This document shows positions 27,983 to 63,466 of a stretch of DNA of 64,000 nt, in pieces (position 1 is the first letter of the stretch; the number at the start of each line of letters is the position of its first letter). Under the pieces are notes generated by a model. That model was not told the origin of the DNA. It did no database searches and worked only from the letters and a program-made list of their open reading frames with translations. The stretch covers positions 2,008,640 to 2,072,639 of the forward strand of contig NZ_KQ031391.1 in assembly GCF_000966285.1 (NCBI RefSeq). The letters are read 5' to 3'. This DNA comes from Pseudofrankia sp. DC12. Its GTDB lineage: Bacteria > Actinomycetota > Actinomycetes > Frankiales > Frankiaceae. Made by a program: the position numbers and the translations under genes.

Positions 27983-28101
27983 GGCGGAAGCTTACGGCGA
28001 GCCCGCGCCCCGGTCCGGCGATCGGACCTGGTACGGTATGCCTCGTTGCCAAGGCGATCCGGCGGCGGGACCGTATGTTCGAGGCGGTCCGCGGCTTGTA
28101 C

Positions 28102-28173
28102 GCCCCCGTAGCTCAGGGGATAGAGCACTGCCCTCCGGAGGCAGGTGCGCAGGTTCGAATCCTGCCGGGGGCA
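28102..28173 (+). tRNA. tRNA-Arg (anticodon CCG)
   Basis: Full cloverleaf can be drawn: acceptor stem GCCCCCG (28102-28108) with CGGGGGC (28166-28172), discriminator A 28173, anticodon stem CTGCC/GGCAG with loop CTCCGGA and anticodon CCG at 28135-28137, and T-arm GCAGG-TTCGAAT-CCTGC. CCA is not encoded. It reads CGG codons. A recombinase relic abuts its 3' end, making it a likely former integration site. Confidence 0.97.
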
Positions 28174-38866: not shown

Positions 38867-38891
38867 CAGTTGTCGAGTTCTCCGTTCCAGC

Positions 38892-39599: not shown

Positions 39600-39632
39600 G
39601 TGATCTGCTCCCGGTCTTCGCCTGGCCGGCCG

Positions 39633-41324: not shown

Positions 41325-42122
41325 TCAGACCGAGAACGGCTCGCAGTAGGGCCGCAGGTCGATCTCCAGAGTCCAGGCGCTGCGCGGCTGCACGAGCAGC
41401 TGCCAGAACGTCTCGGCAATCGCGTCGATGCCGATCATGCCGTCGACCGGGCGCCGGTCCTTCGCGTCCGGGAACTGGCTGTTGAGCCGGTCGCCGTCGA
41501 TCGGGCCGTGCGGGATCACGTTGGCGACGTGGATGTTGCGCGGCGCGAACTCCCGGGCGAGCGCCTGCACGAGCGCGCGCTGCCCGAACTTCGCCGACGC
41601 GTAGGCGGCCAGCTTCGGCCGCCCGACCAGGCCGGAGACCGACCCGGTGAACAGGATCGCCCCGCCGCCGCGGGCCGTCATCCGCCGGGCCGCCTCCCTG
41701 GCGACCAGGAAGCTGCCGAGGCAGTTCGTCCGCCAGACGCTCTCGAAGAACTGGGCGTCCATGTCCAGGATGCTGGGCCGCCACTGCGAGCCGCCCGCAT
41801 TGTAGACGCAGACCAGGGGCGGGCCGAGCTCGTCGAGCTTGGCGAGCGGGCCGGCGAGCCCCGCCTCGGTGCCGGCGTCGGCGACGGCGCTGGCCGCCGT
41901 GCCGCCCTTGTCCTCGATGTCCGCGACGACGGCGGCGAGCTTCTCCTCGGTCCGCCCGGTCACCAGGACGTGCATGCCGCCGGCCGCGAGCCGCCGCGCG
42001 ATCGCCGCGCCGGTCCCCTGGCGCGCGCCGACCCCGATCACCCACGCCACGCCGCCGGCCGGCGGCGGGCCGCCCAGCACCGGCCAGCCCGTGAACCGCT
42101 GTGCCTCATCCGTCGGTGCCAT
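41325..42122 (-). CDS. Short-chain dehydrogenase/reductase
   Basis: SDR of 265 residues, last gene of the ring-cleavage operon. The cofactor loop is altered from TGxxxGIG to GVGARQGTG, and the usual NNAG reads VYNAGG; the catalytic Ser and YxxxK are present (FTGSVSGLVG, YASAKFG). It probably oxidises or reduces a hydroxyl/keto group in the pathway with NAD(P). Transcript continuity is inferred from the 42-base gap to the upstream aldolase gene. Confidence 0.85.
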   Translation of the reverse strand: MAPTDEAQRFTGWPVLGGPPPAGGVAWVIGVGARQGTGAAIARRLAAGGMHVLVTGRTEEKLAAVVADIEDKGGTAASAVADAGTEAGLAGPLAKLDELGPPLVCVYNAGGSQWRPSILDMDAQFFESVWRTNCLGSFLVAREAARRMTARGGGAILFTGSVSGLVGRPKLAAYASAKFGQRALVQALAREFAPRNIHVANVIPHGPIDGDRLNSQFPDAKDRRPVDGMIGIDAIAETFWQLLVQPRSAWTLEIDLRPYCEPFSV

Positions 42123-42164
42123 CTGCGTCCTCTTGTCGACCTCGTGGTCCGCCCAGCCGCCTGC

Positions 42165-42845
42165 TCACGACGGCCGGTGCCTGGTCTGCAGCCGGTGGTA
42201 GCCGAACTGCTCACGTGCCGCGCGCAGGGTCGCCCCGGCTTCGACGGCCGCGCGGATCCGTTCCTCCGCATCGTGGATCTCCCGGGCGGCCGCGACCACT
42301 TCGCCGGCCTTGGCGGCCGGGATAACGACGACGCCGTCGCCGTCACCGAGCAGCCAGTCGCCGGGCTCGACGCGCACCCCGCCGACGCAGACCGGCTCGC
42401 CGGTCGCCTCGACCCGCACCCGGTCCTTGCCGGTCCGCATCCAGTTCCCGCGCGCGAAGATGGGGTAGCCGAGGGTGATCGACCGGTCGACGTCCCGGCA
42501 GACGCCGTCGATAACCGTGCCGGCGATCCCGGCCCGCGCGGCGGCCGCGGTCAGCAGGTCGCCCCACACGGTCACGTCGAGGCGCCCCTGGTTGTCCAGG
42601 ACGACGACCTGGCCGGGGCCGAGATCGTCGATGTAGTCCCCGACCGTGCCGGGGTCGGTCCCGACCGGCCCGTAGCGCAGGGTCCAGGCCTGCCCCAGCA
42701 GCCGGAACGACCGGTCCAGCGGCCTGATTCCCAGACACTGCCCGGTGAGGCCAAGCCGGTCCAGCGCGTCGCTGACGTCGGTGCAGCTGAGCTCGGCCAG
42801 GGCGGCGGCGGTCCGCGCCGCCTCGGTGCTCTCGATGGTTGTCAC
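42165..42845 (-). CDS. RraA-family aldolase-like protein 1
   Basis: Protein of 226 residues in the RraA/HMG-CHA aldolase family. Known members cleave 4-hydroxy-4-methyl-2-oxoglutarate or 4-carboxy-4-hydroxy-2-oxoadipate to pyruvate plus pyruvate or oxaloacetate with a divalent metal. The Arg-Asp active-site pair is in DGVCRDVDR and the family sequence GYPIFARG follows; LGDGDGVVVIP is the late strand. GTG 42845 is chosen because it overlaps the previous stop (GTGA); the upstream open frame is not conserved. It is the third of three tandem paralogues in transcription order. Confidence 0.87.
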   Translation of the reverse strand: MTTIESTEAARTAAALAELSCTDVSDALDRLGLTGQCLGIRPLDRSFRLLGQAWTLRYGPVGTDPGTVGDYIDDLGPGQVVVLDNQGRLDVTVWGDLLTAAAARAGIAGTVIDGVCRDVDRSITLGYPIFARGNWMRTGKDRVRVEATGEPVCVGGVRVEPGDWLLGDGDGVVVIPAAKAGEVVAAAREIHDAEERIRAAVEAGATLRAAREQFGYHRLQTRHRPS

Positions 42846-43504
42846 GACCGTTCCCGCAACATCGTCTCGTAGCTGGCGCCCATCACCTGCGACACGGGGA
42901 CTCCCTGCCTGACCTGGTCGGCCATCAGCCGCTCGCGCTCGGCGATCCGGCTGGCGGCGGCGACGACCTCCTCGGCCCGCGCGGCCGGGACGAACACGAC
43001 GCCACTGCCATCGGCGATCACATAGTCGCCCGGCGTCACTGCGACGCCGCAGATCCGTACCGGGACGTTCCAGTCCTCCTCGGCGACCCGGCCCCGCGCG
43101 GTCAGCGGCACCGCGGCCCTGGCGAACACCGGCAGGCCCAGCTCCCGGCTCTCGTCGACGTCGCGGCACGCACCGTCCACGATGACGGCGCGCACCCCGC
43201 GCCGCACCGCGGCGAGCGCGAGAGTCCCGCCCCAGCCCGACACCCCCGCGCGGCCTCCGTTGTCCACGACGATCACGTCACCGGGCCCTGCGGCCTCGAC
43301 CGCCGCGGTGCCCAGGTGCTGGCGGCTCGGCCCGGCGCCGGCGGCCTCGATCAGGCGCACCGTGAGAACCCGGCCGGCGGCCCGGGCCGGGCCGGTCAGG
43401 CAGGACAAGCCGAGCGCCACGCCGGTCAGGCCAAGCTGGTCGAGCGCGTCCGAGACGGCGCAGGTGTCGAGCGCCGCGAGCTGCTCGGTCAGGTCGTCAG
43501 CCAT
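42842..43504 (-). CDS. RraA-family aldolase-like protein 2
   Basis: Second tandem RraA paralogue, 220 residues from ATG 43504, behind GAGGAG. The active-site pair is in DGACRDVDE, followed by GLPVFARA and IADGSGVVFVP. It shares the fold with its two neighbours but is clearly diverged from them in sequence, so this is not a recent duplication. It may be a second aldolase with different substrate preference, or an oligomer partner. Its stop overlaps the start of paralogue 1 (GTGA). Confidence 0.87.
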   Translation of the reverse strand: MADDLTEQLAALDTCAVSDALDQLGLTGVALGLSCLTGPARAAGRVLTVRLIEAAGAGPSRQHLGTAAVEAAGPGDVIVVDNGGRAGVSGWGGTLALAAVRRGVRAVIVDGACRDVDESRELGLPVFARAAVPLTARGRVAEEDWNVPVRICGVAVTPGDYVIADGSGVVFVPAARAEEVVAAASRIAERERLMADQVRQGVPVSQVMGASYETMLRERS

Positions 43505-43585
43505 CGTGCTCCTCATCCCGGTCAGCCTGCTTGTCGTTCTGGGCGGGCCGCTCGTCCTCGCCGGGCACGGCGACGAAGCGGCGGA

Positions 43586-44260
43586 TCACTGCTGGCCTCC
43601 CCCGGCCGGCAGCCGGTAGATGTCGATCGTCGACTCGCCGGCCGCGAGCCGGGCGAAGATGGCCTGCTCGGCGGCCTCCCGATCCTGGGCGGCGCGCACG
43701 GCCGCCGCGGCGGTGGCGGCCGGCAGCACGACGACGCCGTCGGCGTCGGCCACGACCAGGTCGCCCCGGCACACCGTCACCGCGCCGATCCGCACCGGCG
43801 CGCCGACGGCGCCGCGCCCGTCCGGGTCCTTCGTGGTGCCGCGGATGCACAGCGAGGCGGCGAACGTCGGGAAGCCCCGGCGCTCGAGCGCCTCGGCGTC
43901 GCGGACGCCGCCGTCGATGACAAGCCCGGTGATGCCACGCCGCAGCGCGGCGGCCGCCATCACCTCGCCCCAGTGCCCGTGCTGCCGGGGGTCACCGCCC
44001 GGCCCGAAGCCGACGACCAGCACGTCGCCCGGCTCGGCCGTGTAGATCGCGCGGTGCAGCCAGAGGTTGTCCCCCGGCGGGGACAGCACCGGCAGCGCGC
44101 GGCCGGCGAGCCGCATCCCCGGCCGGACCGGGCCGAGCCCGGCGGGCAGCGCGCCTGCCTTCCCGGCCGCCTCGTGCAGGGTCGCGGCGGGCAGCTCGGC
44201 GGCGGCACGCACCAGGCCCGCCGCCATGGTCCCGGCGACGGTGCTCCCGCGGGCGGTCAC
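43586..44260 (-). CDS. RraA-family aldolase-like protein 3
   Basis: First of the three in transcription order, 224 residues from GTG 44260, which overlaps the LigJ-like stop (GTGA). Active-site pair in DGGVRDAEA, then GFPTFAAS. N-terminal residues LHEAAGKAGALP and the segment PPGDNLWLHRAIYTAEPGD resemble the CHA-aldolase (LigK/ProA) branch more than the other two copies do. Directly following a LigJ-like hydratase, this is the best candidate for the actual 4-carboxy-4-hydroxy-2-oxoadipate aldolase. The 81 bases after its stop hold no gene. Confidence 0.87.
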   Translation of the reverse strand: MTARGSTVAGTMAAGLVRAAAELPAATLHEAAGKAGALPAGLGPVRPGMRLAGRALPVLSPPGDNLWLHRAIYTAEPGDVLVVGFGPGGDPRQHGHWGEVMAAAALRRGITGLVIDGGVRDAEALERRGFPTFAASLCIRGTTKDPDGRGAVGAPVRIGAVTVCRGDLVVADADGVVVLPAATAAAAVRAAQDREAAEQAIFARLAAGESTIDIYRLPAGGGQQ

Positions 44261-45336
44261 GAGCCCAGCCTCGTGAACACCCGGCGCGCGTTGTGCTCGT
44301 AGATCTGGGCGCGGTCGTCGTCGGTCAGGGCGCCGATGCGGTCGATCGTGTACTTGAAGTCCTCGAACGACCGTCCCGTCCGCGGGTTGACGGCGCCGCC
44401 GCTGCCCGGCCGCTCCGTGCCGAACAGGCACCGGTCCGGCCCGACCGTCCTGAACAACAGCTCGAGGGAGTGCTCGCTGTGGACGTCCGTGTCGAACCAC
44501 AGCTGGCGCAGCGCGTCGTCGTAGCTGGCGAGGTCCGCCGGCGGCTCCGGCAGCTCGGTGCCCTCCAGGCCGGCGAGCTCAAGGTCGCGGAAGTACTGCG
44601 CGATGTGCTTCTTCCTGGTCGCCAGGTCCAGCCAGAAGTGCGCCCGCCAGCGGCCGATCTGGTAGGGGATGGACCCGCCGCCGTGACTGATGATGATCTT
44701 CAGGTCGGGGAACCGGTCGAACACCTCGGAATGGGTGAGCGAGGTGACCGCCAGGCTCTCCTCGGTGGCGAAGTGCTCGTCGTAGGTCTCCCGGCCGCGG
44801 CAGCCGGCGCTGTGCACGAGGGCCGGCGCGTCCAGCTCGACCAGCTTCGCCCAGAGCGGGTACCAGTACGGGTCGGACAACCGCGGCGACCGGCCGCCGC
44901 CCTCGTCGGGGTCCGGGTTCAGCAGCACCCCGACGAAGCCGAGCTCGCCGACGGTGCGGTCCAGCTCGGGGAAGACGATGTCGACCGGCTCCCCCGCGAC
45001 CTGGGGCAGGCCGGCCATCCCGCGGTAGCGGTCGGGGTGCAGGCAGACGGTGCGGTGGATCAGGTCGTTCTGCAGCTCGACCCACAGCCGCACGTCGCGC
45101 GCGACCGGGTGGGAGTGCATGAGCGCGAACGGCCGGGGCGAGAGGAACTGGACGTCGGTGCCCACCTGGTCCATCAGGGTCACCCCGCGGTGCGCGGCCG
45201 CCTCGATCTCCGCGTCCTTGATGTACCGGTCGACGTACCACTCCTTCGAGTGCTGGCCGTTCGACGCCTGCAGCACGGTCCGCACGGCGAAGACGGCCGG
45301 CGGAGTGATGAGATGCCCGTGGATGTCGATGATCAT
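44257..45336 (-). CDS. LigJ-like 4-oxalomesaconate hydratase (amidohydrolase family)
   Basis: Metal-dependent amidohydrolase-superfamily protein, 359 residues. The N-terminal metal motif is IIDIHGHL, a further histidine is in APALVHSAG and HGGGSIPYQIGRWR is the strong family block; FGTERPGSGGAVNPRTG near the end resembles LigJ. LigJ hydrates 4-oxalomesaconate to 4-carboxy-4-hydroxy-2-oxoadipate in the protocatechuate/gallate 4,5-cleavage pathway, exactly between a ring-cleavage dioxygenase and an RraA-type aldolase, both of which are adjacent. A related decarboxylase of the ACMSD type is the alternative. Confidence 0.78.
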   Translation of the reverse strand: MIIDIHGHLITPPAVFAVRTVLQASNGQHSKEWYVDRYIKDAEIEAAAHRGVTLMDQVGTDVQFLSPRPFALMHSHPVARDVRLWVELQNDLIHRTVCLHPDRYRGMAGLPQVAGEPVDIVFPELDRTVGELGFVGVLLNPDPDEGGGRSPRLSDPYWYPLWAKLVELDAPALVHSAGCRGRETYDEHFATEESLAVTSLTHSEVFDRFPDLKIIISHGGGSIPYQIGRWRAHFWLDLATRKKHIAQYFRDLELAGLEGTELPEPPADLASYDDALRQLWFDTDVHSEHSLELLFRTVGPDRCLFGTERPGSGGAVNPRTGRSFEDFKYTIDRIGALTDDDRAQIYEHNARRVFTRLGS

Positions 45337-45350
45337 GTTGAGGCTCCGTC

Positions 45351-46355
45351 TCAGGCGGCGGGGTGCCAGGCAAGGAAGGCGAGCCCGATCCCCGTTCCGG
45401 CCGGCGTGCGGCGCACGGGGATGTACTCGGTGTCGGTGACGGTGAGCCCGGCCAGCGCGCCCGCGGCCATGACCCAGTTGAGGATCTCCGAGTTGCCGGA
45501 GCGCAGGCCGCTTGGCGGCAGCGCCCGCAGCGCCTCGGCATCGCCAGTCTCCAGGGCGCGGATCACCCTGCGGTCGAGCTCCTCGTCCACGGCGAAGTGG
45601 CTCAGGCCGCCGGAGGCCACGATCGCGACCCGTTCGGCGCCCGGCCGGGCGGCCAGCACCTGGCCGATGACCGTGCCGACGTCGTAGCAGCGGCTGGGCC
45701 GGGGAACGTTCGGCGGGTAGTAGGTGTTGAGCAGCACCGGCAGGACCGGGATCGGGCGATCACCGCACAGGCGGTGCAGGACGAACCCGTAGGCGTGGCC
45801 GAAGCCGGCCTGGTAGGGGTCGCGGACCTCGCTGGCGACCGCGACGTCCACGCCCGCCCCGACCAGCCCGTCGACCAGGCTGTCGGACAGCTCCCGGGCG
45901 ACCGGGTGCCGGTGGACGGCGTCCATCTTGTAGCCCTTGTTCGCCTCGCGGTACCAGGCCGGCAGGCCCGGGCTGACCTCGTTCTTCGGGTGCATGACGA
46001 GCTCCGGCCCGGTGTAGACGGCGATGGCCGGCAGGTGCGCCCGGCTGAACAGCTCCTCCTGGTCGTCGCCGATGATGACCAGCGCGTCCGGCGCGGCGGC
46101 CTCGATGGCCCGCGCGAGCCGGTCCAGCGCCTGCCGGGCCCGGCTCGCCTGCACGGCGAACCGCTGCGCGGTCGCGCTGTCCTGGTACCGGCCGCCGGCC
46201 TCGTGCTCCAGCTCGGGATAGGACACCACCCGGCCGTCCGCCAGGAACAGCTTTTGCTTGCGGTAGTCGTCCCTGGCCCGGTCCGCCCACAGCGCGGGGC
46301 CGATCGCCAGCAGCGGGCTGTGCGACGTCCCGATCCCCAGCACGATCTCAGCCAT
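45351..46355 (-). CDS. Class III extradiol ring-cleavage dioxygenase (LigB type)
   Basis: Fe(II) dioxygenase of the LigB superfamily, 334 residues. The start IVLGIGTSHSPLL carries the first iron His; VIIGDDQEELF is a family block; the late ASGGLSHF has another conserved His. The length and the N-terminus resemble the gallate/3-O-methylgallate dioxygenase branch, which needs no separate alpha subunit, and no ligA-like gene is seen. It would open a catecholic acid next to a carboxylate or methoxy group. The exact substrate is unknown. GGAGGGA precedes the ATG. Confidence 0.85.
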   Translation of the reverse strand: MAEIVLGIGTSHSPLLAIGPALWADRARDDYRKQKLFLADGRVVSYPELEHEAGGRYQDSATAQRFAVQASRARQALDRLARAIEAAAPDALVIIGDDQEELFSRAHLPAIAVYTGPELVMHPKNEVSPGLPAWYREANKGYKMDAVHRHPVARELSDSLVDGLVGAGVDVAVASEVRDPYQAGFGHAYGFVLHRLCGDRPIPVLPVLLNTYYPPNVPRPSRCYDVGTVIGQVLAARPGAERVAIVASGGLSHFAVDEELDRRVIRALETGDAEALRALPPSGLRSGNSEILNWVMAAGALAGLTVTDTEYIPVRRTPAGTGIGLAFLAWHPAA

Positions 46356-46433
46356 GCCTGTCCCTCCGCGCGCGGAATCCGCCGGGCAGCGGCGAGCGGC
46401 CGCCCGCGCGTCCCGAGCCAGCGTGAACGTCCA

Positions 46434-47402
46434 TCAGAGGTCGAGCACCAGCCGGGCGCTCCTGGAACCGGAGCAGCAGATCATCATGGTGCCGCCGGCT
46501 TCCTTCTCCTGGTCGGTGAGCACCTCGTCGCGGTGGTCAGGCTCGCCGCCGAGGACCGGCGTCTCGCAGGAGCCGCAGACGCCTTCGGTGCACGAGTAGT
46601 AGCAGGCGATCCCGGCTTCGAGCAGCGTCTCCAGGATGGTCCGGCCCGCGGGCACCCGGACCGTCCGCCCGGTGCGCGCCAGCTCCACCTCGAAGCCGCC
46701 CTCGGTAGCCGGCGCCTGGGCCGCGGCGAAGTACTCGACGTGCCGGCGCTCGGCGGGCACGCCGGCGGCCTGCTTCTCGAATGCCTCCAGCATCGGCAGC
46801 GGCCCGCAGCAGTAGACGTGCGTTGCGTCGCCCAGCCCGGCCAGCACGCCGGCGAGGTCGAGCACCTTGCCGCCGTCCTCCTCGTCGACGTGCAGGCGCA
46901 CCCGGTCGGGCCGGTCACCGGCGAGCGCGCGTAGCTCCTCCAGGAAGGCAGCCTGTCCCCTGGTCCGCACGGCCAGGTGCAGGGTCCACTCGCGGCCGAG
47001 GGCGGCCAGCCGGCGCGCCATGCCCAGCAGCGGGGTGACCCCGATCCCGCCCGCGATGAGCACGCTGTCCGCGGCGTCCTCGACGAGCGGGAAGTTGTTG
47101 CGCGGCGCGGACACCTCGAGGAGCTGTCCCGGACGGAGGCTGTCGTGGATCCACGCCGAGCCGCCGCGGCTGTGCGCGTCCCGGTTGACCGCGACGACGT
47201 ACCGGTACCAGTCCCCCTGGTCGCCGCACAGCGAATAGCCGCGGACCAGGCCGTTCGGCAGGCTCAGGTCGACGTGCGCCCCGGCGGTGAACGGCGGCAG
47301 AGCGGATCCGTCGGGGCGCACGAGCTCGCAGGACAGCACGCCGTCCGCCTCCCACCGGACCGTCCGGACGCGCAGTTCCAGGTTCTCAGTGGACCCGCTC
47401 AT
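46434..47402 (-). CDS. Phthalate-dioxygenase-type reductase
   Basis: Electron-transfer reductase of 322 residues with three modules in order: flavin domain (RGYSLCGD, residues about 60-67), NAD domain (AGGIGVTPLLGMARRL, with CCGPLPMLEAF) and a C-terminal plant-type [2Fe-2S] ferredoxin with CYYSCTEGVCGSC plus a fourth Cys in MMICCSG. This order is that of phthalate dioxygenase reductase/VanB. It passes electrons from NADH to the Rieske oxygenase encoded two genes upstream. Its start overlaps the dehydrogenase stop by 17 bases. Confidence 0.92.
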   Translation of the reverse strand: MSGSTENLELRVRTVRWEADGVLSCELVRPDGSALPPFTAGAHVDLSLPNGLVRGYSLCGDQGDWYRYVVAVNRDAHSRGGSAWIHDSLRPGQLLEVSAPRNNFPLVEDAADSVLIAGGIGVTPLLGMARRLAALGREWTLHLAVRTRGQAAFLEELRALAGDRPDRVRLHVDEEDGGKVLDLAGVLAGLGDATHVYCCGPLPMLEAFEKQAAGVPAERRHVEYFAAAQAPATEGGFEVELARTGRTVRVPAGRTILETLLEAGIACYYSCTEGVCGSCETPVLGGEPDHRDEVLTDQEKEAGGTMMICCSGSRSARLVLDL

Positions 47403-48579
47403 GTGGAGCCGTCACCTCCCTCGGATCGAGCAACACTTCGCGTCGCTCACGGGCGGACTGTGCGATGGCGAGCGCCGTACGGACGGTCTCCCGGCCGAAG
47501 GAGCCGTCATGGAACGCGGGGCGGCCATGGACCACGGCGTCGACCAGCTCCTGCAGGACGTCTCCGCGCCCCGGCCACCAGGGCCGGCCCGGCACCGCGA
47601 CCCGCTCGACGCCGCGCTCGGTGTAGGCGGTCACCTCATCCGTGCCGCAGCGGAAGTCCGCGTGCGCGCAGGTGACCACCAGCTCGCCGAAGTGCGGCTG
47701 GTGCGCCGGGGGCACGGCCGGGCGGGCGCCGTACCCGAGGTGCCGGGCCCGCGCCCGCGCCTCCGCGCTGGCCGACATCCCACGCAGCGCGCGGCGGGCC
47801 GAGCCGTGCGCCGGCGACCGGCGGCCGCCGCCCTCGGCGACCCAGCCGTGCAGCTCGTCGCTGTCGAAGTGGTCGTAGCCGCTGTAGACCAGGCTCGCCG
47901 CCCCGTGGTCGGCGAACTCGACCAGCGCGGCGCAGGCGCCCTCCACGGGCCGGGCCGGGTCGAGCACCGACGCGACGGCCCGGACCGCCCGCACCGGCTG
48001 GGCCGCGATCGTGCGGGCGACGTCGATCTGGTGCGGCACCTGGTTGTACAGGATCCCGCCGCCGCGGGCGCTGTCCAGCTCCTCCGGCCGCCGTGGCCGG
48101 TACAGGAAGTCGGTGTAGTTCCACAGCGCGACCATGCCGAGCGGGCCGTAGCTCCCCGAGGCCACCAGGTCCCGGATGACCAGAACCGCGGGGTCGAACC
48201 CGTGGGTGTGGCCCACGACCAGCATGGTCCCGGCCGCGGCGGCAGCGGCGATCATCTCGTCGCAGTGGGCGGCGTCCAGGGCCATGGGCTTCTCGACGAT
48301 GACATGCTTGCCGGCCGCGGCGGCGGCGAGGGTGTGCTCCCGGTGCAGCTGGTGCGGGGTCGCGACGTACACCGCGTCGACCTCGGGCCTGGTGAGCAGG
48401 CCGTCGATGTCGGCGTAGGTGGGCAGGCCTTCGCCGGCCTCGAACCGCCGGCGCAGCTCGGGGCTGGGCTCGGCGGCGCCGACGAGCTGGACGCCAGGGT
48501 GGGTGCGCGCGGCGGCGGCCATCACGCCCCCGGCGAGGCCGAGGCCGATCAGCCCGAGACCGAGCGGACGGTGCGTCAT
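47386..48579 (-). CDS. Gfo/Idh/MocA oxidoreductase, likely cis-dihydrodiol dehydrogenase
   Basis: Protein of 397 residues from ATG 48579 (MTHRPLGLGLIGLGLAGG), an NAD(P)-binding Rossmann start; the longer frame to 48615 has no support. The family motif EKPMALDAAHCDEM carries the conserved EKP, and YNQVPHQIDVART lies in the substrate domain. Phthalate 4,5-cis-dihydrodiol dehydrogenase (Pht4/OphB) belongs to this family and is normally encoded with a phthalate-type Rieske oxygenase, as here. It would rearomatise the diol to a catechol. Confidence 0.8.
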   Translation of the reverse strand: MTHRPLGLGLIGLGLAGGVMAAAARTHPGVQLVGAAEPSPELRRRFEAGEGLPTYADIDGLLTRPEVDAVYVATPHQLHREHTLAAAAAGKHVIVEKPMALDAAHCDEMIAAAAAAGTMLVVGHTHGFDPAVLVIRDLVASGSYGPLGMVALWNYTDFLYRPRRPEELDSARGGGILYNQVPHQIDVARTIAAQPVRAVRAVASVLDPARPVEGACAALVEFADHGAASLVYSGYDHFDSDELHGWVAEGGGRRSPAHGSARRALRGMSASAEARARARHLGYGARPAVPPAHQPHFGELVVTCAHADFRCGTDEVTAYTERGVERVAVPGRPWWPGRGDVLQELVDAVVHGRPAFHDGSFGRETVRTALAIAQSARERREVLLDPREVTAPHERVH

Positions 48580-48586
48580 TCCCGCC

Positions 48587-49936
48587 TCACTCCGCCGGGA
48601 CCGGCGCGCGGGCACCCGACGCCCGCATCTCGTGGCCGTACTCGGCCATGAACGCGTCGAAGGCCGCGAGCGGGCTGAGCTTGCTGATCGCCCGGACGGC
48701 GAACAGCTCCGGGTCCGCGACGATGGCGGGCTCGACGCCCTTGCGCAACGCGTCGGCGAGGTTGAGCAGGATCCGGCGGACGGTCACGACCGCGCGGTCC
48801 GAGCTGACCAGGTGCTCGAACGACCGGTCGGCGACCCCGGGGCTGGTGCCGCCAATGCCGCGGGAGTTCTCCGCCAGCGCCCGGTCCTGGTCGTGCACGC
48901 CCCAGATCCCGGTGAAGTTGGCGGTCCGCTGCATCTCCCGGTCGATCAGGTAGTCGTTCTCCTTGTTCGCGACCGGCAGCCAGGTGTCGATCACGTAGCC
49001 GTCCGGGAGCTGGTACCGCCCCGGCTGCGTACGCGGCGGGAAGAGCGCGCCGCTGCGGTAGTACGAGGCCAGCTCGTCCTCGTCGATCGGGTGGTCGACG
49101 CGGTAGCCGAAGGTGAACACCGTCGTGCAGTTGTCATCCACCGGCACCCAGGCGCGCCCACCACCGGCGGCGAAAGCGCCGGGGCCGCGCGGGATCAGGC
49201 TGAACATCGGCAGGATGAGCTGGGTGACCCGCCAGAGGTACTGGCCCTCGTGGTCACGCCGGGCGCCGTAGACGAGGCCGTAGTCGGTCTGCCGCAGCTC
49301 GATGTGTGGCGCGGCGTCAGCCGACAGCTGCGCCCCGGTGACCTTCTGCTTCGTGGTGTCGCGGTCGAAGTCCCGGTGCAGCCAGCTGATGTGCGAGCTG
49401 TCGATCTCGCCTTCCAGCCCCTGGGACCAGTTGGTCCGCTGCAGCCACCGCGCGGCGAACGCGTGCCCCGGCGGCACGTGCGCGTACTCGAGGCCGGGGA
49501 ACCGCGGCTCGTGCTCCTTCGGCCCCAGGTAGGCCCAGACGACTCCGCCGGCCTCGCGCACCGGGTAGGCGGTGATACCGACCCTGTCGCGGATGTCCGG
49601 GGCGCCCGCCGGGACGTTCGGGGTCTCCAGGCACCGGCCCTCGGCGTCGAACTTCCAGCCGTGGTAGACACACCGGATTCCGCCGTCCTCGTTGCGGCCG
49701 AAGAACAACGGGGCGAGCCGGTGCGAGCAGTAGGCGCTGACGAGGCCGACCCGTCCGCTGCTGTCACGGAAGGCGACCAGGTCCTCGCCGAGGATGCGCA
49801 GCCGCACCGGGGGGCCGTCCGGGGCCTCGACCTCGGAGGTGAGCAGGGCGGGCAGCCAGAACCGCCGGAAGAGCTCGCCCATCGGCGTGCCCTTGCCCAC
49901 CCGGGACAGCTCCTCATTGGCCTCACCGCGCAGCAT
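48587..49936 (-). CDS. Rieske oxygenase large subunit, phthalate 4,5-dioxygenase type
   Basis: Terminal oxygenase of 449 residues. The Rieske centre is in YCSHRLAPLFFGR and CVYHGWKFD (CxH…CxxH), and the mononuclear iron histidines are in DSSHISWLHRD. The start MLRGEANEELSRVGKGTPMGEL and the whole layout match the phthalate 4,5-dioxygenase/PDO branch, which are alpha-only oxygenases, and no small subunit is present. It would introduce a cis-dihydrodiol or hydroxyl next to a carboxylate. It overlaps the preceding gene by 14 bases. Confidence 0.87.
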   Translation of the reverse strand: MLRGEANEELSRVGKGTPMGELFRRFWLPALLTSEVEAPDGPPVRLRILGEDLVAFRDSSGRVGLVSAYCSHRLAPLFFGRNEDGGIRCVYHGWKFDAEGRCLETPNVPAGAPDIRDRVGITAYPVREAGGVVWAYLGPKEHEPRFPGLEYAHVPPGHAFAARWLQRTNWSQGLEGEIDSSHISWLHRDFDRDTTKQKVTGAQLSADAAPHIELRQTDYGLVYGARRDHEGQYLWRVTQLILPMFSLIPRGPGAFAAGGGRAWVPVDDNCTTVFTFGYRVDHPIDEDELASYYRSGALFPPRTQPGRYQLPDGYVIDTWLPVANKENDYLIDREMQRTANFTGIWGVHDQDRALAENSRGIGGTSPGVADRSFEHLVSSDRAVVTVRRILLNLADALRKGVEPAIVADPELFAVRAISKLSPLAAFDAFMAEYGHEMRASGARAPVPAE

Positions 49937-50714
49937 GGCGATCCTCCGGCAGAACGTTGCGCTCGTCCTGGCGCAGCACGAGGCTCCACAGCTCCGACCC
50001 GGTCGGGTGCTGTTCTTCTTCGACGAGGTGGCCGACGAGGCCGGCGCACCGGCCGACCAGGCTGAGCCCGCGGGCCAGGTGCAGCGGCAGGCCCATGCTC
50101 AAGATCATCGCCCCGACGGCCCCGGCGGTATTGGCGGGCAGCCGCCGCCCGTACGCCGCGCGGCTCGCCTCGTCCATCGCCAGCAGCAGGCGCCAGTGGT
50201 GGCCGAAGTACCCGTTGCGTTCCGACACCGCCCGCAGCACCGGCACCCGCGGGTCCCCGTTGACGTGGATGTTGTGCCCGAGGCCGTACAGCGGCTGGCG
50301 GGCGGCCCGGCGCTCGGCCACGTACCGCTTGGCCACGCCGGCGATCTCGCCGTCCGGGCTGTCCCAGGTGAGCCCCGCCGCCGCCGCGCGCAGCATGACC
50401 GCGGCGTCCTGCATGGCGCCGAGCAGGACGCTGCCGGCGCCGAGCAGGCCGGCCGCCACGGCCGCCTGCGGGGCCTCGGGGGCGCCGGTGAAGGTCAGCC
50501 GGGCCGCGAGCGCGCTCGGGGTGAGCCCGTGGTCGGTGACCGTCACCAGGATCGTGTTGATCATTTCTTTCTCGTTGCCCTGACACCGGCGCCCGACGAC
50601 GACAAGCATCAGCATGTCGACGAAGTCGATCTGCCCGATCAGTTCGTTGGCCAGGTCGTGCCCGCGAACCGTGATCCGCTCGGGGGTCGTCTGGCCGATC
50701 TCGGTTTTGATCAA
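49923..50714 (-). CDS. Citryl-CoA-lyase-like protein (citrate-synthase fold)
   Basis: A 263-residue member of the citrate synthase superfamily, much shorter than citrate synthase (about 400). It keeps DHGLTPSALAARLTFTGAPE and the active-site region LYGLGHNIHVNGDPRVPVL; the large domain's last third is absent. Proteins like this are annotated citryl-CoA lyases, cleaving a 3-hydroxy-3-carboxyacyl-CoA to acetyl-CoA and a 2-oxoacid. Coupled by ATGA to an NDP-forming acyl-CoA ligase, it could cleave a thioester made by that ligase. The role in this pathway is inferred. Confidence 0.75.
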   Translation of the reverse strand: MIKTEIGQTTPERITVRGHDLANELIGQIDFVDMLMLVVVGRRCQGNEKEMINTILVTVTDHGLTPSALAARLTFTGAPEAPQAAVAAGLLGAGSVLLGAMQDAAVMLRAAAAGLTWDSPDGEIAGVAKRYVAERRAARQPLYGLGHNIHVNGDPRVPVLRAVSERNGYFGHHWRLLLAMDEASRAAYGRRLPANTAGAVGAMILSMGLPLHLARGLSLVGRCAGLVGHLVEEEQHPTGSELWSLVLRQDERNVLPEDRHAAR

Positions 50715-52819
50715 AACTCTCCCTCCAGCTCGCCCGTGACCACCAGCACAGCGTCGAGGGCGAGCACGCCCTGGCCGGCGGGCAGCACGCGGACCGGGTT
50801 CAGCTCAAGCTCGACCACCTGGCTGGGGTACCGCTCCACCACCCGGGACACCGCCACCAGCAGCGCCGCGAGCGCGTCCACGTCGTACGGCCCGGCTCCC
50901 CGCACCCCGCGCAGCAGCGCCGCGCAGCGCGGCTCGTCGATGAGCGCGCGGGCCTGCGCGAGGTCCAGCGGGAGCAGCCTGCGCGCGGCGTCGTCGAACA
51001 GCTCCACGAGAACGCCGCCGAGGCCAAAGGTGAGGACCGGCCCGAAGACGGGATCCCCGGTCACGCCCACCAGCACGTCGAGGCCCGCCGGCGCCATCGG
51101 CTCGACGAGGGTCCCCAGCAGGCCGGCGTCGGGCCGGGCCGCCCGCGCGGCGGCCAGGACCCGCTCGTGGCCGGCCCGCACCTGCGCCGCGTCCTCCAGT
51201 CCCAGCGCCACGCCGCCGACGTCGGACTTGTGGGTGATCTGCTCGCTCACCACCTTGACGACCACCGGATAGCCCACTCGTCCGGCGATCGCGACGGCCT
51301 CGTCCGCGCAGCCCGCGACCCCCGAGACCGGCACCGCCACGCCGTGGCGGCCGAGCAGCTCCTTGGCCGCCGGCTCGGTCAGGGTCACCCGGCCCTCGCC
51401 CGAGGCGGGCGTGCCCAGCGGCCGCCACCCGTCCGCCGGCCGCCACTGGCCGCGCCACACCCAGCGTCGCAGCGCGGCCACGCCGTTGCGCACGCTGCGG
51501 ACGGGTACCAGGCCGCCGTCGACCAGCTCGGCGTAGCCGGGCCCGAGCCGGTCGCTCATCCAGACCGGGAGGATCGGGGTGTCGGTCTGCCGCTGCACGG
51601 CGGCGATCGACGCCGCGATCGTGCCAGTCAGCTCCGCGTAGTCGCACGGGAAGGGGTACAGCACGACGCCGACGTCCGGGTCGTCGGCGACCGCCTGGAG
51701 GCTCGCGTGGCCGATCTCCGGGCGAGTGAGGATGTCCGAGGTGGCGTCCACCGGGTTGCCGACCGCGGCGTAGTCCGGCAGCACCGCGCGCAGCGTCGTG
51801 TCGGTTGCCGAGGTGAACGTCGCCAGCTCGAGCCCGGCCTGGCCGACCGCGTCGGCCGACAGCGCACACCCCCCGCCGGAGAACCCGTAGACGGCCACCC
51901 GCTCGCCGCCGGTGGGCCGCCTGCGCGCGAACAGGGCCGCGGACTCGATCAGCTCGTCCATGTCGTCCACCTCGACGACCCCGATCTGGCGCAGCACCGC
52001 GCTGTTCACCGCGGCGGCCCCGGACAGCGAGCCGGTGTGCGAGGCGACGGCGCGCGCGCCGTAGTCCGAACGCCCCACCTTCAGCGCCACCACCGGCTTG
52101 CCCCGTTCCGCCGCGTACAGCGCGGCGTCGACGAAGGCCGGGCCGTTGCGGACGCCCTCTATGGCCGTGGCGATCACGCTGATGTCGTCGGCGTCGGCGA
52201 GGTAGCGGACGAAATCGGCGACCGTCAGGTCCACCTCGTTCCCGGTGGACGCCCACAGCCCCACGCCGACGCCGCGCTCCATCGCCTGCAGGAAGCAGCG
52301 GCCGATTCCCCCGCCCTGGGTGGCCAGGCCGATCGGGCCAGGACGCTGGTCGAGGTGGAAGGACGGGGAGAACATGAACCCGATGCGCTTGTTGAGGTTG
52401 CACAGTCCGGGCGAGTTCGGCCCGTACAGGCGCATCCCGGCCGCGCGGCCGATCCGCGCCATCTCGGCCTCGGCGGCTCTGCCCTCGGGGCCGGTCTCGC
52501 CGAAGCCGGACGTGAAGACGATCGCGTACCTCACGCCACGATCGGCGCACTCGCGCAGCACCGGGAGCGTCTGGGCGGCCGGGACGAGCAGCATCGCCGC
52601 GTCGGGCGCCTCGGGCAGGTCAAGCACGCTCGGGTAGCAGGCCAGACCGTGCACGGTCTGCCTGGTCCGGCTGACCAGGTATGGCCGCCCGGTGAAGTCG
52701 GAGTGGTCGAGCAGGTTCTCCACCGCCCTGGCGCCGAGGCTGCCAGCCCGGTCCGACGCTCCGACCACCACGACGGACGCGGGGTCCACGAGCCGGGACA
52801 GGTCCGCGCCGCCGCCCAT
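50711..52819 (-). CDS. NDP-forming acyl-CoA ligase
   Basis: A 702-residue fused alpha/beta acetate-CoA-ligase-type enzyme (ADP/GDP-forming). ATG 52819 is set by AAGGAG upstream; the longer frame lacks support. N-terminal CoA-binding domain (VVVVGASDRAGSLG), succinyl-CoA-ligase-like domain with the likely phosphohistidine in ASHTGSLSGAAA, and C-terminal ATP-grasp (EPAAKELLGRHGVAVP, VVKVVSEQITHKSDVGG). It makes a CoA thioester from a carboxylic acid with ATP. It is the first gene of the operon; its promoter and operator are just upstream. Confidence 0.88.
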   Translation of the reverse strand: MGGGADLSRLVDPASVVVVGASDRAGSLGARAVENLLDHSDFTGRPYLVSRTRQTVHGLACYPSVLDLPEAPDAAMLLVPAAQTLPVLRECADRGVRYAIVFTSGFGETGPEGRAAEAEMARIGRAAGMRLYGPNSPGLCNLNKRIGFMFSPSFHLDQRPGPIGLATQGGGIGRCFLQAMERGVGVGLWASTGNEVDLTVADFVRYLADADDISVIATAIEGVRNGPAFVDAALYAAERGKPVVALKVGRSDYGARAVASHTGSLSGAAAVNSAVLRQIGVVEVDDMDELIESAALFARRRPTGGERVAVYGFSGGGCALSADAVGQAGLELATFTSATDTTLRAVLPDYAAVGNPVDATSDILTRPEIGHASLQAVADDPDVGVVLYPFPCDYAELTGTIAASIAAVQRQTDTPILPVWMSDRLGPGYAELVDGGLVPVRSVRNGVAALRRWVWRGQWRPADGWRPLGTPASGEGRVTLTEPAAKELLGRHGVAVPVSGVAGCADEAVAIAGRVGYPVVVKVVSEQITHKSDVGGVALGLEDAAQVRAGHERVLAAARAARPDAGLLGTLVEPMAPAGLDVLVGVTGDPVFGPVLTFGLGGVLVELFDDAARRLLPLDLAQARALIDEPRCAALLRGVRGAGPYDVDALAALLVAVSRVVERYPSQVVELELNPVRVLPAGQGVLALDAVLVVTGELEGEF

Positions 52820-53077: not shown

Positions 53078-54259
53078 TCACAGCGACCTCGCGATGGTCT
53101 GGCGCATGATCTCCGACGTTCCTGCGTAGATCCGCAGGACCCGGTTCGACGTGTAGATACGCGCGAGCGGGGTCTCGTCCATGTAGCCCATCGCCCCGAA
53201 CAGCTGCATGCAGCCGTCGACCACCCGGCTGGACATCTCGCACAGGTAAAGCTTCGCGATGGAGCCCTCGATGGGCTCGGCGACTCCCGACCGGGTCCTG
53301 CGTACCAGCTCGTGCAGGCAGGACCGCCCCACCTCGATCTCGGTCCTCATGCTCGCCAGGGCGAACTGGCTGTTCTGGAAGTCGAAGACGGCCCGGCCGA
53401 ACGCGGTGCGCCGCCTGGTGAACTCCAGCGTCATCCGGAAGGCCAGCTCGGCCTGGCCGAGCGCGCGGAACCCGATCTGCAGCCGGTCGTAGCCCAGCGC
53501 GTTCATCATGATCTTCATCGCGTCGCCCTCGGCGCCGAGGCGGTGCGCCGCCGGCACCCGGACGTTGTCGAAGGCCAGCTCCGCGGTGTTGCCAGCGGGG
53601 AAGCCCAGCGTCTTCATCTTGCGCCTGCTCACCCCGGCCGTAGCCGGATCGACCAGGAACATCGACAGGCTCCGGCCGCGCCGTTCCCGGCTGGTCCTGG
53701 CCACGACGTAGAGGACGTCGGCGATGTCGCCGTTGGTGATGTAGGCCTTGGTGCCGGACAGCACGTAGTGGTCGCCGTCCCGCTCCGCGAAGGAGCGCAT
53801 GCCCAGCACGTCGCTGCCGGCGTCCGGCTCCGTGATGGCCATCGCCTGGATCGCCGCGCCGGAGCAGACGCCCGGCGCCCACGCGCGGATCAGCTCAGGG
53901 GATCCGCCTTCCAGTAGCGCGCCGACGGAGATGTCGGTGCAGAACAGGCTGCCGACGGTGCCGTAGCAGTGCGACTTGGCGATCTCATAGGACAGCAGCA
54001 CGTTCGCGATGGGGCTGCCCCCGGGGCCGCCATACTCCTCCGGGATCTGCGCGCCCAGGATCCCGGCGCGGCCGGCCTTCGCCCAGGCCTCGTGCCGGGC
54101 GGCGCTGTCGGTGCCCAGCTCGTGGTAGGCCGGCTCGATCTCCTTGTCCAGGAAGGTGCGCACGGTCTGGCGGTACAGCTCCTCCTCCACGCTGAACGGC
54201 GAGTGGTAGGCCAGCTCGGGGGGAACCGTGCCGCCGCGGGCAGCGTCGTCACCAGCCAT
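53078..54259 (-). CDS. Acyl-CoA dehydrogenase
   Basis: FAD-dependent enzyme of 393 residues from ATG 54259, behind GAGGAG. It has the ACAD blocks AMAITEPDAGSD, GTKAYITNGDIAD, the C-terminal FGAMGYMDETPLARIY and IYAGTSEIMRQ. The position of the catalytic Glu in many members (YEGT) is Ala here; in isovaleryl- and long-chain enzymes the base is in helix G instead, where this protein has YDRLQIG, i.e. Asp. It would desaturate an acyl-CoA produced by the neighbouring CoA-transferases. It is the last gene of that operon. Confidence 0.88.
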   Translation of the reverse strand: MAGDDAARGGTVPPELAYHSPFSVEEELYRQTVRTFLDKEIEPAYHELGTDSAARHEAWAKAGRAGILGAQIPEEYGGPGGSPIANVLLSYEIAKSHCYGTVGSLFCTDISVGALLEGGSPELIRAWAPGVCSGAAIQAMAITEPDAGSDVLGMRSFAERDGDHYVLSGTKAYITNGDIADVLYVVARTSRERRGRSLSMFLVDPATAGVSRRKMKTLGFPAGNTAELAFDNVRVPAAHRLGAEGDAMKIMMNALGYDRLQIGFRALGQAELAFRMTLEFTRRRTAFGRAVFDFQNSQFALASMRTEIEVGRSCLHELVRRTRSGVAEPIEGSIAKLYLCEMSSRVVDGCMQLFGAMGYMDETPLARIYTSNRVLRIYAGTSEIMRQTIARSL

Positions 54260-54284: not shown

Positions 54285-56528
54285 TCAGGGTTCGGCGCGG
54301 ACGACGCCCGCCGCCAGCAGCACGTCGATCGCTGGCTCCGGGTAGCCGAGCTCGGCGAGGACCGGCCGCGTGTGCGCGCCGAACCCGGGCGCGGCCGGCC
54401 GGTCCCGGGTGTCGAGCGCGGTCCGCGAGAAGGTGACCAGCGGTCCCAGGCTGCCGGTGACGCGCCCGAGCCGGTCGTCGACGCGGTCCACGACCAGGTG
54501 CGCGGCGGCCGCGGCCGGGCTCGCGGTGAGCGCGGCCAGGCCGTCGCACCGGCACCGCTCAACCCAGACGCCCGCCGCGGCGAGCGCCGCGAGCAGCTCG
54601 CCGGTCTCCCACCGGGCGGCCGCCGCGTCGAAGCGCGCGGTCACCGCGGCGTCCCATGCGGCCCGCGGCGGCGGCTGCTCGCCGGGCAGCAGCACTCCCC
54701 AGAGCGCGCGTGCCTGAGCCTCGTCGCGCGCGGCGACGGCCACCCACCCGTCGGCCGTGCCGTACAGGTGCTCGGCCGGGTGCGCGCCGCGCAGGGTCGG
54801 GTCCGGCCCCGGCGCGCCGCGCAGCTCACCCCCGGAGGTGCGGCACAGGTCGGAGAGCAGGAACATCCCCGCGTTGAGCAGGCTGACCCAGGCGTTCCCG
54901 ACCCGGCCCGCCACCAGGCGCTCGTGCCAGGCCATCAGGACCCCGATGGCCCCCATCGCGCCGACGGCGTAGTCGAGGTACGGCGTCCGATACCACAGCG
55001 GCGGCCCCTGCGCGCCGCCGGCCCGCCGCTCGAGCCCGACGAGCGCCTGGATGATCATGTCGAACCCGGGGTCGTCCACGCGCGGCCCGGTGGGCCCGAA
55101 GGCGAAGGTCCGCAGCATCACGGCGTCCGGGTTGACCGCGCGCACCATCTCAGGGGACAGGCCCAGCCGCGCGGCGGCGGCGGGGCGCAGGTTGTGGGTG
55201 ACCACGTCGGCGTCGCGCAGCAGCCGACGCACCACCTCCCGGCCGGCCGGGGACTTCAGGTCCACGGCGATGGCCCGCTTCCCCGACTGGCAGGCGATGA
55301 AGTGCCGCTGCAGGCCGCGGTTCGGATCCCGGGACAGCGCCTCGACCTTGGTCACGGACGCGCCGAGGTCGCCCAGCAGCCTGGAGGCGAACGGGCCGGC
55401 GACGTAGCTGCCGAAGTCGAGGACCCGCACCCCCGCCAGCGGGCCGCCACCGCGGGCGGCCGGGGCGGCCGGGGCGGCGCGCCCGCCGGGGCGCTCCCGC
55501 GCGCCCGTCAGCCTGATCGGGCCGCCGACCACGGTGGCGCCCGCGCGCTCCACCAGCAGGCCGTTGGCGGCGGTCTGCTCGTCGGCCCAGAACTGCCCAG
55601 GCTCGAGCACCGGGGCCGCGGGCAGGCCGACGCTGCGGGCCGCGGCGAGGATGCCGGCGCGGCGCTTGCGGGCGACGTGCCGGGCGATCAGCGGCCGGTC
55701 ACCGAAGTAGGTCTGCGCCGTCGCGCCCAGCCTGGGAATCCCGCGGTCGGCCGGATCGACCGGCACGTCGATGTCGAGGATCCGGTACAGCTTCGCGACC
55801 GCCGACTCGACCCCCATCGCGAACTGGACGTACGTCCCGTCCGCACACCGGAAGATCAGGTGCTCGACATCCTTGGGCGTCACCTTGTGGAACTCGGCGT
55901 CGGCGCGCTCCGCCGACATCCACAGCGGCATCATGAACAGCGCGGTGCCCTGCTGCAGCGACGCCGTCACCACCTGGCCGCGGCCTCCGCCGGCCAGGTC
56001 CACGAGGGCGGCCCACACCCCGAGCGTGCCGAGGAGGGCCTGGCCGTAGGTGGGGAACGGCACGGCGAAGAACAGCGGCCGGTCGCTGTAGTGCTCCGCG
56101 ACGAGCCCGGTGCGCGCCTGCGCCAGCAGGTCGACCGCGGGCGCGCCGGGCGCGTGGCCGTCGACGTAGCCGGTCAGGTCGAGCACCACGAGCCGTGGGA
56201 AACGGGCGGCGAGGGCGGCGGCGTCATGGCGGGTCGCCACCGCCGGGTGGTCCTCGCCGCCAACCAGGCACACGTCGGCCCGGCTCAGCAGCTCGTCAAG
56301 GCCGTCCGCCGTCGCGGGGACGGCGGCGGCGCGCCAGGCGCGGTGCGCCGGATAGATCTCGTCGAACACGCCGTCGCCGGTCGGGGCGACGCGCTGGACC
56401 AGCGCGCCGCTGTCGGCGAGCAGGGCACTCACCATGGCCGCCGCCATGCCGGCGCCGAGGTCGACGACCCGCAGGCCGCGTCCGGCCGCGAAGCCGGCCT
56501 CGGCCTGGTCGTCCCCCTCGCGGGTCAC
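54285..56528 (-). CDS. Tandem-fused CaiB/BaiF CoA-transferase 1
   Basis: A 747-residue protein consisting of two family III CoA-transferase units. The start GTG 56528 follows GGGGAGG. The N-terminal unit (about residues 15-350, VVDLGAGMAAAMVSALLADSGA) keeps an Asp in AVDLLAQARTG; the C-terminal unit (about 365-747, VLDFGSYVAGPFASRLLGDLGA) has DDPGFDMIIQAL, the catalytic-Asp position. Family III enzymes are intertwined dimers, so a fused pair could form a heterodimer-like unit. It would activate a carboxylic acid using a CoA donor. Confidence 0.88.
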   Translation of the reverse strand: MTREGDDQAEAGFAAGRGLRVVDLGAGMAAAMVSALLADSGALVQRVAPTGDGVFDEIYPAHRAWRAAAVPATADGLDELLSRADVCLVGGEDHPAVATRHDAAALAARFPRLVVLDLTGYVDGHAPGAPAVDLLAQARTGLVAEHYSDRPLFFAVPFPTYGQALLGTLGVWAALVDLAGGGRGQVVTASLQQGTALFMMPLWMSAERADAEFHKVTPKDVEHLIFRCADGTYVQFAMGVESAVAKLYRILDIDVPVDPADRGIPRLGATAQTYFGDRPLIARHVARKRRAGILAAARSVGLPAAPVLEPGQFWADEQTAANGLLVERAGATVVGGPIRLTGARERPGGRAAPAAPAARGGGPLAGVRVLDFGSYVAGPFASRLLGDLGASVTKVEALSRDPNRGLQRHFIACQSGKRAIAVDLKSPAGREVVRRLLRDADVVTHNLRPAAAARLGLSPEMVRAVNPDAVMLRTFAFGPTGPRVDDPGFDMIIQALVGLERRAGGAQGPPLWYRTPYLDYAVGAMGAIGVLMAWHERLVAGRVGNAWVSLLNAGMFLLSDLCRTSGGELRGAPGPDPTLRGAHPAEHLYGTADGWVAVAARDEAQARALWGVLLPGEQPPPRAAWDAAVTARFDAAAARWETGELLAALAAAGVWVERCRCDGLAALTASPAAAAAHLVVDRVDDRLGRVTGSLGPLVTFSRTALDTRDRPAAPGFGAHTRPVLAELGYPEPAIDVLLAAGVVRAEP

Positions 56529-56544
56529 CGCCGTCCTCCCCTGG

Positions 56545-59703: not shown

Positions 59704-59790
59704 GACCACCCTTCCAGGTCCCGTCCCGGCGGCATGTCTAGGAGCGACGTCCCCGCCCAGGCGGGCTCAGGTCAGCCTCACCACTTTGCG

Positions 59791-60871: not shown

Positions 60872-60923
60872 GGCCGCTGCCCATCCTTCGCGTCGGAGAC
60901 CTGGCACCAACGAATTACTCCCA

Positions 60924-60951
60924 GCATATCGGAGAAATCCACGACATGCCG
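60924..60951 (-). promoter_or_regulatory. IclR-type operator before iclR (site C)
   Basis: ATATCG, ten bases, CGACAT, then GCCG: 53 bases before the iclR GTG. The right half (ACGACATGCCG) is identical to site B. A possible minus-strand -10 TATGCT overlaps the left arm. Confidence 0.6.
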
Positions 60952-60987
60952 AATGGTCGCGCGTCGGGTGCTGGTGGCCGGTCCGCG

Positions 60988-62157: not shown

Positions 62158-62205
62158 ACGCACCCTCTTCACCTGGCCGGGGCGGGACCGCTGGCCCGGG
62201 CACGC

Positions 62206-63450: not shown

Positions 63451-63466
63451 GTGGTTCAAGGCCTCC

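Follow-up and report, generated by a model that had tools for sequence, protein, structure and literature searches.

Putative LigZ/LigY-type ring-cleavage operon in an apparently mobile catabolic gene cluster of Pseudofrankia sp. DC12

A stretch of 64,000 nt from Pseudofrankia sp. DC12 (the window), located inside one 6.9-Mb contig, was analyzed for an operon predicted to open the ring of an aromatic acid. Eleven genes, all on the minus strand and running from 52816 to 41325, are tightly packed, with overlaps of 4 nt between the ligase and lyase-like genes, 14 nt between the lyase-like and Rieske genes and 17 nt between the dehydrogenase and reductase genes, and a GTGA overlap at the junction of the LigY-type gene and RraA1. 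These coordinates and junctions confirm the eleven genes, several of them overlapping, of an initial annotation made from the letters alone. Families were assigned with Pfam and NCBIfam profiles, which agree with that annotation for ten of the eleven genes; the remaining one is the amidohydrolase, which had been called a LigJ-like hydratase. The genes are as follows.

50711..52816, minus strand: NDP (nucleoside diphosphate)-forming acyl-CoA ligase, ACD type, 701 aa (Pfam CoA_binding_2, Succ_CoA_lig and ATP-grasp_5)
49923..50714, minus strand: citrate-synthase-fold protein annotated as citryl-CoA lyase, here the lyase-like protein (NCBIfam NF004868 and residue alignment)
48587..49936, minus strand: Rieske oxygenase, LigXa_C type (Pfam and nearest solved relative 9INA)
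47386..48579, minus strand: predicted Gfo/Idh/MocA cis-dihydrodiol dehydrogenase, phthalate-diol type (start uncertain, 48579 or 48615)
46434..47402, minus strand: reductase of the Rieske system, NAD-binding and plant-type 2Fe-2S domains (Fer2/NAD)
45351..46355, minus strand: predicted LigZ-type class III extradiol dioxygenase, LigB family (LigZ match and tree)
44257..45336, minus strand: predicted LigY-type meta-cleavage C-C hydrolase, amidohydrolase superfamily (Amidohydro_2; match in the Protein Data Bank (PDB) and tree)
43586..44260, minus strand: RraA1, similar to LigK and to aldolases of 4-hydroxy-4-methyl-2-oxoglutarate (HMG) and 4-carboxy-4-hydroxy-2-oxoadipate (CHA); its GTG start overlaps the LigY-type stop
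42842..43516, minus strand: RraA2, orthologous to the first of two RraA genes that separate ligZ from ligY at the 5,5'-dehydrodivanillate (DDVA) locus of SYK-6
42165..42839, minus strand: RraA3, orthologous (61%) to the second of these two SYK-6 RraA genes
41325..42122, minus strand: short-chain dehydrogenase/reductase (SDR), 75/76% identity in the Nonomuraea/Arthrobacter clusters

Neither a 4,5-dihydroxyphthalate decarboxylase nor a 4-carboxy-2-hydroxymuconate semialdehyde (CHMS) dehydrogenase was recognized among the eleven genes, as had been noted initially.

Orthologous loci were found by a scan of 84,980 genomes. The dioxygenase has orthologues in Nonomuraea wenchangensis (76% identity), Arthrobacter hankyongi (71%) and Sphingomonas tagetis (58%), and the gene order is the same in these three loci. 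The ring operon genes recur at 62-84% identity and in unchanged order in two further actinobacterial lineages, so their arrangement is more than chance.

The best solved relatives of the amidohydrolase in a PDB sequence search are LigY (E 5e-81) and then LigJ (3e-53). A tree that includes LigY, LigJ and loci of several phyla places it with LigY and splits it from LigJ at 100/100 support, and of 30 diagnostic columns, it is LigY-like in 11 and LigJ-like in 4. All of His6, His8, His179, His223 and Glu282, which we take to be the zinc and catalytic-position residues of LigY, are present; they are common to LigJ and thus do not discriminate. Match values and tree together rule out the LigJ hydratase reading of the initial annotation, and the protein is, judged by its relationships, a LigY-type C-C hydrolase with predicted activity. 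In the DDVA pathway, LigY hydrolyzes the meta-cleavage product; it is no hydratase and converts the ring-fission product into R-COOH and 4-carboxy-2-hydroxypenta-2,4-dienoate (CHPD) (PMC6874591; PMC12673573).

The genome used for comparison was taken to be that of SYK-6 because its LigY is identical (238/238 residues). The best match of the dioxygenase in that genome is the LigZ of the DDVA locus (36% identity over the full length, E 2e-56), followed by a paralogous LigZ from a second locus, and the next LigB protein matches at only E 5e-14. In the LigZ tree, proteins of Bradyrhizobium and sphingomonads join the dioxygenase and its orthologues in a supported group adjoining SYK-6 LigZ; tree support is moderate and the deeper forks are weak. 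A PDB sequence search with the dioxygenase found no close relative. By these comparisons, the dioxygenase is a predicted LigZ-type class III enzyme. The second locus in the SYK-6-like genome has the order LigY-LigZ-RraA-RraA-RraA, its own Rieske gene and 63% LigY identity. On Acidovorax and Diaphorobacter plasmids, a LigZ-like gene is joined to genes for an HpcH-type aldolase, a thiamine pyrophosphate enzyme and LigJ-clade amidohydrolases.

The three RraA-like proteins, which the initial annotation called RraA-type aldolases, represent three separate orthologous groups. RraA1 reaches 171.6 bits against NF006731 (CHA/HMG aldolase), just below the cut-off of 179, and has the G-x20-R-D motif. At almost all LigY loci whose flanks were long enough, RraA2 and RraA3 are neighbors, namely at those of the window, Nonomuraea, Arthrobacter, Sphingomonas, Bradyrhizobium symbiosis plasmids, Rhodococcus koreensis, plasmids pNL1 and pLA1, and both SYK-6 loci; the exceptions are one locus (L136) that has neither gene in the stretch read and another (L150) in which both are present but separated within the cluster. 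The two orthologues at the DDVA locus of SYK-6 lie between ligZ and ligY, and the published tags SLG_07720 for ligZ and SLG_07750 for ligY (PMC12997858) leave room for exactly two genes, matching the RraA pair. The step hydrating CHPD in SYK-6 is listed as not identified (PMC12673573), and we propose the RraA2/RraA3 pair as candidates for it, which is the weakest step of the route described below. On the Novosphingobium plasmids pNL1 and pLA1, LigY-RidA-RraA2-RraA3 genes occur among polycyclic aromatic hydrocarbon-type dioxygenase genes, and RraA3 bears a diguanylate cyclase annotation on them.

The Rieske protein has a LigXa_C domain, and its nearest solved relative is 9INA (E 6.7e-92, 42% identity), the isophthalate dioxygenase (IPDO) of Comamonas testosteroni KF1, which binds the two meta carboxylates through R234 and H257 (PMC12445078). 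Only one of this pair is kept: R236 corresponds to the carboxylate-anchoring R234, whereas His257 is replaced by R261, an Arg in all four orthologues. Phe249 and Gly172 of IPDO are likewise replaced, by Gly and Glu, and in the Rieske tree the protein forms its own clade at 100/100. Compared with phthalate 4,5-dioxygenase (PDO), R244 is kept and the R207 position has no Arg (Gln in the focal protein, in a gappy local alignment). A LigXa demethylase reading is not supported, as the protein is separate from LigXa in the tree, where both branches are long. A second Rieske gene, nearest phthalate dioxygenase, adjoins the CoA-transferase genes in Nonomuraea (L109:960-2312) and Arthrobacter (L111:5542-6858); no such copy is present in the Pseudofrankia sp. 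DC12 genome.

The Gfo/Idh/MocA protein matches 3moi ("probable dehydrogenase", 7e-107) and then 7wzd, a 4,5-dihydroxyphthalate dehydrogenase (1.6e-90). The CHMS dehydrogenase PmdC follows far behind at 2.8e-13, which rules out the reading as a LigC-type CHMS dehydrogenase and upholds the earlier assignment as a dihydrodiol dehydrogenase. The reductase is 73/62% identical in the Nonomuraea/Arthrobacter clusters. Together, the Rieske pocket residues and the phthalate-diol-type dehydrogenase suggest that the compound to be dihydroxylated is a benzoate carrying, meta to its carboxyl, another group that is probably anionic. The resulting 5-substituted protocatechuate would have the arrangement on which LigZ and LigY act in the DDVA pathway.

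We conclude that the operon probably serves ring cleavage within a horizontally moving catabolic cluster, whose substrate would be a plant- or pollutant-like aromatic acid with an oxidizable side chain, degraded by a LigZ/LigY route. The sequence supplies the gene content, its conservation, the LigY, LigZ, RraA2 and RraA3 relationships and the lyase residues found missing (below), and from these we infer every reaction. Judging from its pocket, the Rieske oxygenase with its reductase would cis-dihydroxylate a benzoate in which another acidic or bulky group stands meta to the carboxyl, and the Gfo/Idh/MocA dehydrogenase would, by its family, re-aromatize the diol to a 5-substituted protocatechuate. 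The LigZ-type dioxygenase would then cleave the ring next to the substituent R (proximal meta-cleavage), and the LigY-type hydrolase would release R-COOH and CHPD. RraA2 and RraA3 may hydrate or isomerize CHPD to HMG, which RraA1 would cleave to two pyruvates. The DDVA route likewise leads from CHPD over HMG to two pyruvates (PMC12673573; PMC6874591). Side chain or R-COOH may be processed as CoA thioesters with the help of P450s, alcohol and aldehyde dehydrogenases and two fused CoA-transferases (listed below), and likewise by an acyl-CoA dehydrogenase, a crotonase-fold protein, the NDP-forming ligase and the citrate-synthase-fold protein. As a LigZ/LigY route does not need 4,5-dihydroxyphthalate decarboxylase or CHMS dehydrogenase, their absence would leave no gaps. 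The initial annotation had foreseen an operon different from plain phthalate or protocatechuate 4,5-cleavage and acting on another substrate, which the LigZ/LigY gene set bears out; its 4,5-cleavage through a LigJ hydratase to pyruvate and oxaloacetate falls with the LigY placement.

Several observations weigh against this reading. The 36% identity to characterized LigZ does not fix the cleavage site relative to R, and we know of no RraA-fold hydratase, so CHPD hydration may be done elsewhere. RidA, found in most related loci, is missing from this cluster. In Sphingomonas, there is no reductase beside the cluster and the lyase-like gene was not found in the genome, though the ligase is kept; neither the reductase nor the citrate-synthase-fold protein is thus indispensable.

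The ligase is 78/73/60% identical in the Nonomuraea/Arthrobacter/Sphingomonas clusters and the lyase-like protein 81/76% in the first two, where the pair is conserved at the operon head. Both genes are therefore genuinely tied to the operon, as had been suspected. The lyase-like protein matches NF004868 ("citryl-CoA lyase") at 322 bits with a cut-off of 193. It was aligned, together with 33 homologues, with Hydrogenobacter citryl-CoA lyase and bacterial ATP-citrate lyase (ACLY). The citrate-synthase fold, the DHG and GxGH His and the DPR Arg are shared with these enzymes. The catalytic Asp (D1026 of the ACLY NVDG motif), by contrast, is replaced in 34/34 (NTAG in the focal protein, N-x-A/T-G overall), as is the Arg after GxGH (ACLY R976; GHN in the focal protein and P, N, H, T or S in homologues). 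Nearly all 34 share an extra His two to three residues further on. Human ACLY D1026A forms citryl-CoA and no acetyl-CoA, and R976E has background activity (PMC10115795). Because two residues needed by the human enzyme are missing in all 34 proteins, citryl-type thioester cleavage is unlikely, and the family name of NF004868 looks doubtful. The citrate-synthase module of ACLY has been argued to act allosterically (PMC10115795), which leaves the residue argument strong for ACLY itself but somewhat less so for lyases that stand alone.

Around NF004868-family genes, a CoA-transferase or CoA ligase lies within 2.5 kb in 23 of 28 loci, an acyl-CoA dehydrogenase within 5 kb in 9/28, a LigB-type gene within 5 kb in 9/28 and a thiolase in at least one (a lower bound from a single reference sequence). 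This neighborhood points to side-chain acyl-CoA chemistry and not to a finish for the ring-fission product. Both the missing residues and the neighboring acyl-CoA genes speak against the CoA-dependent cleavage of a tertiary hydroxy-tricarboxylate suggested initially. The family occurs in 40 of 297 genomes sampled from the class of the window, and a literature search for citryl-CoA lyase together with Rieske or extradiol genes returned nothing relevant. In many actinobacteria, genes for a CoA-transferase, a citrate-synthase-fold protein and a short LigB-type protein stand side by side, often with an IclR gene.

Comparison of approximately 100 kb around the focal genes places the operon in a conserved cluster of ~26 kb and about twenty genes, extending from 41.3 to 67.4 kb and past the window end, of which the eleven genes form the ring half. 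The cluster does not begin at the acyl-CoA ligase, as had been supposed, since conservation continues upstream beyond the window end. The additional genes are listed with their identities.

53078..54250, minus strand: acyl-CoA dehydrogenase, 77/61% in Nonomuraea/Arthrobacter
54285..56588, minus strand: fused double CaiB-type CoA-transferase 1, 71/59/42% in Nonomuraea/Arthrobacter/Sphingomonas
56545..57375, minus strand: crotonase-fold protein, 89/85/60% in Nonomuraea/Arthrobacter/Sphingomonas
57385..59709, minus strand: fused double CaiB-type CoA-transferase 2, 71/61/41% in Nonomuraea/Arthrobacter/Sphingomonas
60044..61177, minus strand: IclR-type regulator (IclR domains 60044-60910), 61/57/53% in Nonomuraea/Arthrobacter/Sphingomonas
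61420..62172, minus strand: SDR, 76% in Nonomuraea
62206..63459, minus strand: cytochrome P450, 67% in Nonomuraea
63467..64000, minus strand: zinc alcohol dehydrogenase, running to 64573 past the window end, 70/67%
64664-65866, past the window end: second P450, 55/45%
65888-67390, past the window end: aldehyde dehydrogenase, 67%

Protein identities with Nonomuraea and Arthrobacter are mostly 55-89%, and the crotonase-fold protein is among the best conserved; in this protein, a His replaces the hydratase Glu144 (GGGAHLA), and it may not be a hydratase. Nonomuraea has almost all cluster genes, Arthrobacter most of them, some tens of kilobases away on the same contig, and Sphingomonas fewer. A LigY-type match at E 1e-60 or better occurs in 4 of 394 genomes of the class, including that of the window, which is the only one of its genus among them with such a match. 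This rare and patchy distribution is as expected for horizontal transfer, and the cluster looks mobile, being shared with distant lineages and not with related genomes. The isolation sources of the three orthologue hosts give no hint of the substrate. Elsewhere in the window, an open reading frame resembling a recombinase zinc-ribbon remnant (27992-28921) overlaps tRNA-Arg(ccg) (28102-28174), a possible integration site. A branched-chain-type ABC (ATP-binding cassette) transporter (36101-40871) follows the operon on the same strand; its permease and ATPase find only 31-33% matches in the orthologous clusters.

Among other explanations, it is unlikely that the ligase and lyase-like protein belong to a separate pathway merely travelling in the cluster. 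The pair or its parts do occur without nearby ring-cleavage genes on Paracoccus, Sagittula and Sulfitobacter plasmids, and Sphingomonas lacks the lyase-like gene, but the genes overlap tightly with the Rieske gene, keep their position across three genera and have a LigB-type gene nearby in 9/28 homologue loci, all of which speaks against this explanation.

A biaryl pathway, in which a DDVA-like lignin dimer is O-demethylated by the Rieske enzyme and then cleaved by LigZ and LigY, seems improbable as well. The ligZ-RraA-RraA-ligY gene set is that of the SYK-6 DDVA locus (ligXa/ligZ/ligY), which shares the LigZ-type dioxygenase, the LigY-type hydrolase and the RraA2/RraA3 pair. Unlike that locus, the present one has, in place of the LigX demethylase, a dihydroxylating-type Rieske protein outside the LigXa branch with a cis-dihydrodiol dehydrogenase that demethylation does not need, no LigW-type decarboxylase was recognized in the cluster, and the NDP-forming ligase, CoA-transferases and citrate-synthase-fold protein are added to a cluster full of alkyl and acyl-CoA genes.

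We regard as very unlikely a route from (substituted) phthalate without prior decarboxylation, with 4,5-dihydroxyphthalate cleaved beside a carboxyl-bearing carbon, formate or R-COOH removed by LigY to give 4-oxalomesaconate, and CHA then formed and cleaved by RraA1 to pyruvate and oxaloacetate. The dehydrogenase belongs to the same Gfo/Idh/MocA branch as the cis-4,5-dihydrodiol dehydrogenase of the phthalate pathway, RraA1 resembles CHA aldolase, and decarboxylase and CHMS dehydrogenase would become unnecessary. However, the Rieske protein has Gln for PDO Arg207 and is more like isophthalate dioxygenase, and to our knowledge, no cleavage of 4,5-dihydroxyphthalate of this kind has been described. 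The known phthalate 4,5-dioxygenase pathway differs from the present operon in its 4,5-dihydroxyphthalate decarboxylase, which was not recognized here, and in its protocatechuate pathway, in place of which LigZ and LigY stand. Least credible is protocatechuate-type 4,5-cleavage in which a LigJ hydratase and a CHA aldolase lead to pyruvate and oxaloacetate and the ligase and citryl-CoA lyase add a CoA finish, a route to which the near-threshold RraA1 score and the NCBIfam name lend some color, but which fails on a LigY amidohydrolase, missing CHMS dehydrogenase and 2-pyrone-4,6-dicarboxylate hydrolase, and a lyase-like protein without the Asp and Arg essential in ACLY.

Going beyond the favored LigZ/LigY route, one may speculate, though the odds are rather against it, that the NF004868 family is a new citrate-synthase-fold enzyme that cuts acetyl-CoA or another unit off side-chain 3-hydroxyacyl-CoAs, a thiolase substitute without catalytic Asp paired with a CoA ligase or CoA-transferase, and that RraA2 and RraA3 perform the missing hydratase step of LigZ/LigY pathways.

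The LigZ/LigY route would account for the absence of the expected decarboxylase and semialdehyde dehydrogenase, and RraA2 and RraA3 are two candidate genes for the hydration step left unassigned in SYK-6 (PMC12673573). Many NCBI "citryl-CoA lyase" annotations may be wrong, as the required residues are missing in every member examined. Ring cleavage by LigZ and LigY, described for a lignin dimer in sphingomonads, would extend to actinobacteria with a different entry reaction.

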